Assembly (NCBI GenBank): GCA_003565555.1 | Contig: PXBH01000220.1 | Location: 1 to 42,537 of the forward strand | Reading direction: 5' to 3' | Length of the DNA: 42,537 bases | Origin: Cryomorphaceae bacterium | GTDB taxonomy: Bacteria > Bacteroidota > Bacteroidia > Flavobacteriales_D > Cryomorphaceae | Shown: positions 17,945 to 34,545 of the stretch, piece after piece | Position numbering within the stretch: the first letter of the stretch is position 1 | Layout: every line of letters begins with the position of its first letter | Program-made: the position numbers and the translations under genes | Notes under the pieces: model-generated | What the model was told of the DNA's origin: nothing | Seen by the model: only the letters and a program-made list of their open reading frames with translations | Database searches by the model: none

Positions 17945-17976
17945 AAAAAGGCCGCCCGACGGGGCGGCCTTTTTTT
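17945..17976. terminator. Strong bidirectional terminator
   Basis: A perfect 13-bp stem, AAAAAGGCCGCCC (17945-17957), loop GACG, GGGCGGCCTTTTT, followed by further T residues. It lies between the GNAT gene (+) and the kinase-like gene (-). Before the MITE inserted, it would have sat about 20 nt after the stop codon of the kinase-like gene. Confidence 0.9.
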
Positions 17977-17990
17977 ATGGGTCCGGGGCT

Positions 17991-18236
17991 TACCTCGGGT
18001 CTGCTGAAAAGCGACGAAAATATTGATTAAAAATGATTTAAAACCTTTTCTCGGAATAAAACTGCATGCCTTTTGAGTGGTTATTGCAGAAAACCGTGCA
18101 GTTATGCGAAGCTCCCGTCGTCTAACCAGCTGCGCGCCGTCTGCTTCCCCGTCTGCAACTTGCAGTATACCAATACAGCTGCGTTTTGACGGGTCACAGC
18201 CGGCACACATCTGATTTTTTCAGCAGACCCTACCTC
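17991..18236. mobile_element. 234-bp MITE with 14-bp inverted ends and 6-bp target duplication
   Basis: The element (17997-18230) begins GGGTCTGCTGAAAA and ends with the exact reverse complement TTTTCAGCAGACCC (18217-18230). It is flanked on both sides by the same hexamer TACCTC (17991-17996 and 18231-18236), a target-site duplication. It has no coding frame, so it is a non-autonomous element that would need a transposase elsewhere. Its right end supplies the last base of the kinase-like gene's stop codon. Removing the element and one hexamer recreates an in-frame TAA at the same codon, so the protein is unchanged. Confidence 0.85.
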
Positions 18237-19318
18237 AGCGACGGCATTCTGAGCTTGAGTTCCAAGGTAAGGTTGAGGTGTTTAAAAAGTATGGAGCCCA
18301 TATTGGTAAGCCTCAGAAAGCCTTTGTCTCCGTGGTGCTCGGCAAGGGCACGTTTCAGCACCCCCACGCGCCGCGCATCGCTGACGGTATCCTTTCTCAT
18401 GGCCCTGATAAGCCGCTGCAGCTGGTACCTGTTTGCGGCCACTCTCCGTCGCATCAGTGAGCGTTCCTCATTTTGGTATTGAGCGAGGCTCTCCTTGCCG
18501 AGTCTGGAAAGTGCCATTTCTACGAAGGGATAGTTCTCTTTGAAGAACTGCGGGAGGTAAATGTTCTTGCGGCCCTCATAACTCTGCTGATCGAAGTCGA
18601 TGGCACGGATGCGGTACTGCATCTGGTCAAAATCGGGTGTCATATCCACCACAAAATTGTAAGAACGCATGTCGCCCAGGAGACGCGAAAAGCAACGCTG
18701 ATTGAACTTCACAAATTCCTTGGCGAGCCGAACCAAGTTGTGGCCGTGTTCGTGGAGATTGTGTTTGAGAAACTGGTCGCCGGGAATGCCCGAGATATGC
18801 TGCTCGACGAGGGTTGTCTCATTGACCAAGTAGAAAATCTTGTTCGGAGAAAGCAATTCCTCCAGCTCAAGGCCGTACACCCGGCTGGCATCGGCCCGCT
18901 TGATGTAATAGTAGTCGTGGTTGTCATTGAGCAGGTTTCTGATCTTAATTCGAAAGGGATTGGAATTTCCGAACAGGCAATAATCCACGCTGTCTACGAC
19001 CAGATGCTCCATGAGGTCGGGCACGAGGTCGGCGGTAAGGTGTACGTAGATTCGCGTCAGGCGGTCATTGATCTCCTGCTGTTCGCCGCGATCGTACATT
19101 ACGGTGCGCCAATAGGTGTCGTTGCCCTCACTGTCATTTACCGGAAAGGAAGCCTCCCACCTCAGGAGGTCCTCGTAATTCAACTCGAAGTCAAAGTAGC
19201 GCTCGTAACGCATGAGGTAGATGACCAACTCCGGGCTGATGGGAAAGAATTTCTTTTTCTCCGTGATGATGTTCTCGAACTCGCGGTGCAAATCCATCGA
19301 GGGGAAAGCATTTTTCAT
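18230..19318 (-). CDS. Hypothetical protein with probable kinase/APH-like fold
   Basis: The protein has 362 residues from the ATG at 19318. I do not recognise a named family, but the layout resembles the protein-kinase/aminoglycoside-phosphotransferase fold. A strand with a lysine, YYYIKRAD (K140), is followed by a helix rich in Glu (GLELEELLSP, 149-158). Next come a hinge-like strand LVEQHISGIPGD (170-181), a catalytic-loop-like GDMRSYN (D216, N221) and IDFD (D241, D243) in the place of DFG. A helical tail follows. All key positions for ATP and metal binding therefore have plausible counterparts. The N-terminal 110 residues are unassigned. Assignment to a kinase is my inference. The stop codon now overlaps the end of a MITE. 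Confidence 0.75.
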   Translation of the reverse strand: MKNAFPSMDLHREFENIITEKKKFFPISPELVIYLMRYERYFDFELNYEDLLRWEASFPVNDSEGNDTYWRTVMYDRGEQQEINDRLTRIYVHLTADLVPDLMEHLVVDSVDYCLFGNSNPFRIKIRNLLNDNHDYYYIKRADASRVYGLELEELLSPNKIFYLVNETTLVEQHISGIPGDQFLKHNLHEHGHNLVRLAKEFVKFNQRCFSRLLGDMRSYNFVVDMTPDFDQMQYRIRAIDFDQQSYEGRKNIYLPQFFKENYPFVEMALSRLGKESLAQYQNEERSLMRRRVAANRYQLQRLIRAMRKDTVSDARRVGVLKRALAEHHGDKGFLRLTNMGSILFKHLNLTLELKLRMPSLR

Positions 19319-19431
19319 AGAGCCTGAAGGTAGTGAAAAAGGAGCGACCGGGGAGAATGCCGGGCACAACCGCGTTTGCGGCATCTTTTTTGTTTTCGCA
19401 ACGCGTTGTACATTTAGCGAAAATCTGAACC

Positions 19432-33622: not shown

Positions 33623-33778
33623 AGATCCTTCCCTTCGGTCAGGATGACATGGCCCATGATTATGAGGTGGGCGGTTTGGGGAGAGAAAACGGGGCGGCTG
33701 TGCCGCCCCGTTTTCTCTCCCCAAACCGCCCTTATAGACCCCAAGGCTTACTGTCATCCTGACCGAAGGGAAGGATCT
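33623..33778. repeat. 156-nt giant nested inverted repeat
   Basis: Outer arms of 27 nt (33623-33649 and 33752-33778) are perfect reverse complements and contain the core CCCTTCGGTCAGGATGAC. Inside them is a second, independent perfect hairpin with 30-nt arms (33669-33698 and 33702-33731) and a 3-nt loop TGT. Two stems of this length without mismatch would fold very stably as RNA or single-stranded DNA. Confidence 0.92.
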
Positions 33779-33870: not shown

Positions 33871-34046
33871 TAATTCGAGTCTGTCCATAAAGTCCATTTG
33901 CGGCGTTGCACTTGGATTGAAAACAGTCATCCGTACGGACTCCCCGCTTTTCAACCCTACGCGCGCCTTGCTACTAAACTTTCGACCGAAGGGAGTCCGT
34001 CCGAACTGAATCAGACTCTCTACTAAATGGACAGACTCTAATTCGA
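33871..34046. mobile_element. MITE-like unit with 8-bp direct repeats and inverted ends
   Basis: Direct repeats TAATTCGA occur at 33871-33878 and 34039-34046. Just inside them are inverted ends GTCTGTCCAT (33879-33888) and ATGGACAGAC (34027-34036); counting the overlap the arms match over 12 bases. An inner inverted pair ACGGACTCCC (33935-33944) and GGGAGTCCGT (33991-34000) lies near the middle. No coding capacity. The layout fits a small non-autonomous element with a target duplication, next to copy B of the methyltransferase end. Confidence 0.65.
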
Positions 34047-34081: not shown

Positions 34082-34545
34082 CTAAAGTTTCAGCGTAAAT
34101 TAATACTGAGCGTACCTAACGGCACGCAGGCTGCATAGGAAACAGCGTAACGACGGGGATAAATCCCCTCCTTACCACAAAGGGTGTACCTAAAGGCACG
34201 CCTGCTATTCAGCAAGATCACCTGCCGGTGAATAAGGCAAAGTCCTTGCGCTCAAAATTCTTGGAGCAACCGCCTGAGGGAGGCACGTCGATGCGTTCAA
34301 ATGGTGTGGGCCAATCATGTAAACGAAGGGTCGATGGCTACTTTCAGAAGAGAAGCTGCCCCCTCATAAGCAATACTTTAAATCGAAGATCAACACCCCG
34401 CGTCGTCAGATACGGCTCGTGTGGTAAGCCCGGGTTTCAACCGGGGTGTTATGATGTGCCATAGAAAAACACGTGCCGTTAGGTACGTTCAGTGTAAACT
34501 ACCCAAGATACCATCAATCGAAACTCTCAAGCTCCGAAACTTTAG
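34082..34545. mobile_element. 464-bp inverted-repeat element, no transposase
   Basis: Ends CTAAAGTTTC (34082-34091) and GAAACTTTAG (34536-34545) are inverted. A second inverted pair of 22 bases with one mismatch (34105-34126 and 34472-34493) contains CGTACCTAACGGCACG exactly. A related direct copy, GTACCTAAAGGCACGC, lies at about 34187-34202, and GGGGATAAATCCCC forms a palindrome at 34156-34169. A 78-codon frame on the plus strand (34228-34464) has no recognisable protein features. This resembles a REP/MITE-like element or a structured RNA; no family could be named. Confidence 0.6.

Follow-up and report, generated by a model that had tools for sequence, protein, structure and literature searches.

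A MITE with IS5-type ends on the stop codon of a predicted kinase-like gene in a Cryomorphaceae bacterium, and recurrence of its family on host stop codons

Organization of the locus

The window analysed here, that is, the whole 42,537-nucleotide stretch of contig PXBH01000220.1 from a Cryomorphaceae bacterium (assembly GCA_003565555.1, genome G000), carries a short element with inverted ends exactly at the 3' end of a gene. The features of the locus are listed below.

17945-17977, minus strand: terminator-like hairpin with a U-run behind the host gene, on the far side of the element (sequence and fold; counterpart in genome G002)
17991-17996, no strand: left copy of the target duplication, TACCTC (exact repeat at 18231-18236; 6-bp duplications recur among family members)
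17997-18230, plus strand: MITE of 234 bp without a transposase gene (sequence and family matches)
17997-18010, plus strand: left terminal inverted repeat, GGGTCTGCTGAAAA (sequence; 14-mer copies elsewhere)
18115-18230, plus strand: conserved right arm, common to copies in two families of the order (copy comparison)
18217-18230, minus strand: right terminal inverted repeat, TTTTCAGCAGACCC, the perfect complement of the left end (sequence)
18230-18232, minus strand: TAG stop whose bases come from the last position of the element and the first two of the duplication; TAA in the reconstructed empty site (sequence; script joining the flanks)
18230-19384, minus strand: host gene, ORF of 384 aa (ORF list; alignment of relatives)
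18231-18236, no strand: right copy of the target duplication, TACCTC (sequence)

Direct reading of positions 17991-18236 gave TACCTC, 234 bp and TACCTC again, with perfect 14-bp terminal inverted repeats, and all the coordinates that the earlier note had given for the ends and the hexamers were right. The element is short, has inverted ends and contains no transposase ORF, as is typical of a MITE. Within the window, 23 overlapping exact 14-mer inverted pairs lie 40-600 bp apart, one of which is the MITE; 50 mononucleotide shuffles of the window gave 0.16 such pairs on average. A 14-bp inverted repeat taken without its family would be only suggestive; the identity of the element is certain because further copies are present in the genome and the same 6-bp duplication is found elsewhere. 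The 234-bp element is a MITE inserted on the stop codon of the host gene.

The relatives of the host gene align only from about residues 27-30, so the ATG at 19315 may be the actual start, which would give a protein of 361 aa. Searches of the host protein against Pfam and NCBIfam returned no family. A structure model built from 15 sequences (mean pLDDT 82) matched VPS34 and other PI3K-type kinases over residues 27-355, with the VPS34 kinase domain as the best match (Z 13.3, rmsd 4.3, 266 residues aligned). The invariant residues of the family include G-D-x-R-x-x-N and D-F-D, which we take to be similar to the loops for catalysis and metal binding in PI3-type kinases. The protein is therefore predicted to have a PI3K/VPS34-like kinase fold, which by itself shows no function, and the label "kinase-like" previously given to the gene is supported by this predicted fold and not by any Pfam or NCBIfam family. 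The gene family is widespread in Bacteroidota, with at least 572 stretches encoding a relative and no Pfam match.

The construction of the stop codon was reproduced as described before. The TAG read at 18232-18230 on the minus strand consists of the last base of the element and two bases of the hexamer, and joining the flanks by script after removal of the element and one hexamer gave AGG TAA with the length of the host protein unchanged. The claim that the protein was left unaltered holds for this reconstructed site, but the last few residues of the protein of G002 differ from it by ordinary divergence. As for the terminator reported at 17945-17976, a hairpin with a U-run and a 13-pair stem in the computed fold was found at 17945-17977, but it was not listed by a consensus terminator scan. 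The element does separate the gene from this hairpin, as had been noted, with 240 bp of hairpin-forming sequence lying between the two.

Empty site in related genomes

The congener G002 is homologous to the window on both sides of the insertion and does not carry the element. It matches both flanks at 77-78%, and its copy of the host gene (88% amino-acid identity) is followed by the stop and the terminator-like hairpin. The relative with an empty site that the earlier note had proposed to look for was thus found. The genomes G001 and G006 also have no element behind the same gene. The description of the insertion as recent stands in part: the insertion took place after the split from G002 and the nearest copies of the MITE are 91% identical to it, but the empty site is seen in a congener and not in the same species, where the site before insertion would read GAGGTAAGCC.

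Alternatively, the element might have been retained because it serves the kinase-like gene as a functional RNA element in the 3' untranslated region. The transcript across the element folds better than shuffled sequences (z = -5.3, terminator included) and the right arm of the MITE is strongly conserved; however, good folding is expected of any long inverted repeat, covariation counts against a conserved structure (term of +1.35, with a double change in only 2 of 45 pairs), and the element is absent behind the host gene in the three relatives G001, G002 and G006. Rfam gave only sub-threshold matches around the terminator and none at the gathering threshold across the whole window. We consider such a function very unlikely.

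Distribution of the family

A BLAST search of the genome of the window found 13 matches to the MITE, the window copy included. The 14-mer GGGTCTGCTGAAAA occurs there in 10 exact copies and 7 copies with one mismatch (0 for the reversed control), so the further copies of the ends proposed as a check amount to 13 BLAST matches and 17 14-mers with at most one mismatch. Matches to the MITE number 7 in the congener G001 and 6 in G019, from another family of the order, and there are none in G002. Among 299 genomes of the order searched by whole-element similarity, the only further convincing carriers were G019 and, weakly, G008, both belonging to another family. Across the copies, the left ~100 bp of the MITE are far more variable than the right arm (18115-18230). 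Weak hits in G056, G060, G132, G134 and G233 span only 26-36 bp of the A-rich left part and were disregarded.

Relatives with the same ends are also present in more distant genomes of the order. An end-pattern search of 399 genomes of the order, in which many single hits are expected by chance, showed strong enrichment in G251, G024 and G011, with 58, 17 and 14 ends, respectively, at no more than one mismatch and none in the control. Searches of plasmids with 120-bp end pieces, and of plasmids and phages with the MITE, gave no match.

Target duplication

The 6-bp flanks are identical in 9 of the 21 two-ended copies and differ by a single base in another 3. The length of the duplication is fixed at 6 bp by non-palindromic cases such as TACCTC, GAAGTA and CACTTG. 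The target was derived from 70 half-sites in A+T-rich genomes, in which both ends of one insertion are counted and all G011 rows as well as L228, L232, L240, L284, L287, L318, L326 and L327 are left out. The positions read T (62/70), A (69/70), any, any, T (70/70) and A (69/70), i.e. TANNTA, with T preferred just outside the target. The targets in the G+C-rich genera are looser (TACCTC, GAAGTA, TAATTC, GACTTA, TAAGTG and CACTTG), although the duplication is still 6 bp. The TACCTC of the window has this length and fits three of the four fixed positions of TANNTA.

Complete IS5-family elements with the same ends

One contig of G011 begins inside an element, and the C-terminus of an IS5-type transposase, scoring below the curated cut-offs of the families, stops ~20 nt before the element end. 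Through plasmid relatives of this transposase piece, complete IS elements were reached; a search of viral sequences gave no relative of it. The complete IS5-family elements with such ends are two Persicobacter copies, ISMae6 of Microcystis and ISAcma17 of Acaryochloris, and all four are flanked by a 6-bp TANNTA duplication: TAGTTA and TAAGTA for the Persicobacter copies (1669 bp), TAATTA for ISMae6 and TAGTTA for ISAcma17. The Persicobacter and ISMae6 transposases score 305 and 485 bits with the IS5-family model NF033578 (cut-off 275 bits). Like the MITE, ISMae6 and ISAcma17 have ends of the type GGGTTTGCTGA... and a 6-bp TANNTA duplication; unlike the MITE, they are full-length with a transposase, and only the ends are in common, the left end of ISAcma17 having diverged. 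The right end of ISMae6 and the MITE ends of G251 and G024 agree over GGGTYTGCTGAAAAAGTCA. The nearest complete-IS end to the MITE is the left end of the element of Persicobacter sp. JZB09 (L375/L376), GGGTCTGCTGAAATA, although this element differs from the MITE in its length of 1669 bp, its 507-aa transposase and a transposase stop that consists of the first three bases of the duplication.

The ends common to the MITE and the Persicobacter, ISMae6 and ISAcma17 elements, together with the same duplication length and TANNTA target as the complete IS, place the MITE with the IS5 type, and its parents are likely IS5-family elements of the ISMae6/ISAcma17 type. The similarity of the MITE to these elements is confined to the ends, over ~13-19 bp. 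The IS with the same ends that the earlier note had suggested searching for therefore exists, with the same duplication length. A PF01609 search of the window's own, fragmented assembly found no complete such IS, only one IS4-family gene and one unassigned ORF. Inspection by eye of the ORFs in 16 stretches showed no transposase next to solo ends, whether in G251, G024, G011 or elsewhere. The starts of 37 contigs of G024 were inspected for a short contig with an IS interior, and the shortest contig had 2333 bases.

Two other types of transposase were considered as movers of the MITE. On contig C13 of G019, two MITE-family ends enclose an IS256-family gene (399 bits with NF033543), and this IS256 element was first taken as the autonomous partner. 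This assignment was dropped once the IS256 element proved to lie within an ordinary MITE copy (L190): it is bounded by IS256-type ends of its own and by an 8-bp duplication, CTGGTCTA, of a site inside the MITE, and the MITE halves on either side align with other copies of the family. The 6-bp duplications of the MITE family also differ from the 8-9 bp of the IS256 type, making mobilization by an IS256-family transposase extremely improbable. In turn, the MITE copy around this IS256 element occupies the stop codon of a 150-aa ORF. An IS256 remnant in the genome of the window (G000:C173) is unrelated.

A REP-associated tyrosine (Y1) transposase was suggested by a contig edge of G024 (L331, C31), at which a 39-aa piece resembling the C-terminus of such an enzyme lies ~75 bp inside the element end. 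With 16.6 bits, this piece stays below the cut-off of 80, and it was found at one locus only. To our knowledge, Y1 transposases make no target duplication, but the MITE family has clear 6-bp duplications, unlike REP/RAYT systems, in which a palindromic unit lies near a Y1 gene. Movement by a Y1 transposase is thus highly improbable.

In three of the four complete elements, the transposase stop is formed by the first three bases of the duplication. At the right ends of L375 and L376 (Persicobacter) and L378 (ISAcma17), the transposase gene has no stop of its own and is ended by the TAG or TAA of the duplication. In L374, where a truncated further Persicobacter copy adjoins TATTTA, the reading frame continues into the flanking DNA. 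A comparable case is IS870 of Agrobacterium, also of the IS5 family, in which the target sequence reportedly supplies the stop codon of the transposase gene; its target, however, is said to be CTAG, and it is the element's own gene that is affected, not a host gene.

Short, non-coding MITEs with inverted ends and a target duplication, such as RUP and Correia, are thought to be moved in trans by full IS, as described in PMC2229807. The target of RUP given there is TA, unlike the one found here, and no stop-codon placement of RUP/Correia-type MITEs was found in the accessible part of that paper. According to PMC9769881, MITECca01 of Cardinium is a MITE of ~240 bp in a Bacteroidota genome; it is similar to the present one in size and in its Bacteroidota host, but its parent is IS982, not IS5 (PMC9769881).

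Proposed insertion mechanism

On the basis of the ends and the target, the window copy was probably moved by an IS5-type transposase. A DDE transposase of this type would join the GGGTCTGCTGAAAA ends to a 6-bp staggered TANNTA target. Read along the gene, the window target is GAGGTA followed by A, a degenerate TANNTA in which the TA of the host's TAA stop served as the needed half-site. The duplication restored this TA, and the first base of the element, G, completed the new stop TAG. The host protein is intact because the TA of TAA was used as the half-site and the G of the element forms TAG. The insertion is silent for the protein and places 240 bp of hairpin-forming sequence between the gene and its terminator. 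The window holds a fully reconstructable MITE insertion, and a likely parental type and a precise target rule are given for a family present in several genera of one order.

Recurrence on host stop codons

The position on a stop codon, presented by the earlier note as a single curiosity, turned out to recur. The 21 two-ended copies come from G000, G001, G019 and G008; in 12 of them, a neighbouring gene has a stop codon that starts exactly at the first or the fifth base of the duplication in the reading direction of that gene. The 21 copies leave out the one-ended or strongly decayed matches of G000 (C48, C75, C70, C10, C167, C63, C120 and C179) as well as C23 and C40 of G001 and C204 and C248 of G019, and insertions at different sites are counted as separate events. 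When only copies with an identical or nearly identical duplication are considered, 9 of 13 are on a stop (C241 included after a one-base shift of its boundary). The genes with a copy on their stop encode an L,D-transpeptidase pair, a LytTR regulator, a MotA/ExbB-like protein, a POT transporter, a polysaccharide deacetylase, a class-V aminotransferase and a 2-hydroxyacid dehydrogenase, among others. Most of the stop-bearing genes are real, since 8 of 10 looked up have a Pfam family. Two copies (C210 and C241) lie at overlapping stops of convergent genes.

In the window, 10 of 133 harmless sites with the loose motif are on stops, and a motif-weighted model of harmless sites, combining the target motif with avoidance of genes, predicts 4-13% on stops against the 12 of 21 observed. 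A further factor is therefore required, for example a bias towards gene ends or selection against damage to promoters. Altogether, 17 of the 21 copies (18 if a doubtful 90-aa ORF is counted) are on or within 50 nt behind a stop, compared with 28-30% predicted. When only sites on or within 50 nt behind a stop are admitted, the share that the model places on the stop is 27-44% with the motif weighted moderately to fully and 5% without the motif. The gene caller of these null models is a simple longest-ORF caller, which is crude and calls too much space intergenic. Once insertion is limited to gene ends, the exact coincidence with stops is largely accounted for. The simplest explanation for this limitation is selection against promoter damage, and a targeting bias is possible.

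Base composition appears to matter as well. Of the 18 two-flank copies in A+T-rich and other distant relatives, only 3 coincide with a stop in the filled as well as in the reconstructed site, a fraction not distinguishable from the 5-9% expected (P 0.06-0.22). The stop fraction in the G+C-rich genera is higher than this, whether the 9 of 13 copies (Fisher p = 0.0075) or the 12 of 21 (p = 0.019) are compared with the 3 of 18. In G+C-rich genera, TAA and TAG would be among the few TA-bearing places where occupation is harmless, making them recurrent landing sites. In A+T-rich relatives, TANNTA would be common between genes and stops would be a minority of the sites.

We also considered an active preference of the family for stop codons or gene 3' ends beyond TANNTA, for example through a feature of the DNA or of transcription termination. 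The excess on exact stops over the motif-weighted model, the excess within 50 nt behind stops and the two copies at overlapping convergent stops speak for such a preference. However, the fraction in the A+T-rich relatives is near expectation, the motif alone gives 27-44% once a site lies within 50 nt behind a gene, and the null models rest on the crude gene caller; an active preference is judged unlikely. A related and equally doubtful proposal is that stops serve as a landing niche for ISMae6-type IS5 elements and their MITEs, which would be adapted to harmless insertion at gene ends, with a real stop bias in compact G+C-rich genomes. The TA-ended target would then coincide with TAA or TAG, the first G of the element would turn TA|G into a new stop, and the transposase gene itself would often borrow its stop from the target.

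We favour the reading, with a probability of roughly 0.8, that the MITE belongs to the IS5 family (ISMae6/ISAcma17 type), was moved in trans by an IS5-type transposase and landed on stops mostly through the supply of TA and the harmlessness of these sites. Target supply and selection would explain most of the stop-codon excess, and under this reading genomes of higher G+C should have a larger fraction of their copies on stop codons. The recurrence offers a testable case of target sequence, base composition and selection jointly setting the positions of mobile elements. No report of host stop codons as insertion sites of IS5-type MITEs was found in the accessible literature, including the accessible parts of PMC2229807, PMC11448079, PMC9769881 and PMC10969869. 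IS5 MITEs are a known kind of element, and the recurrence of MITE copies on host stop codons is what is new here.

Additional observations

Three other repeats were seen in the window. Positions 33623-33778 form a long nested inverted repeat without an Rfam match (outer arms 33623-33649 and 33752-33778, inner arms at ~33669 and ~33731). At 34111-34487, a 16-bp inverted repeat surrounds ~345 bp, also without an Rfam match, and may be a structured RNA or a mobile element. Positions 33877-34041 are a second MITE-like stretch with the ends AGTCTGTCCAT and ATGGACAGACT, and a similar sequence is present in L052. In addition, ParE- and ParD-like toxin-antitoxin genes are located near MITE ends at four loci in three genomes (L011, L016, L290 and L291).
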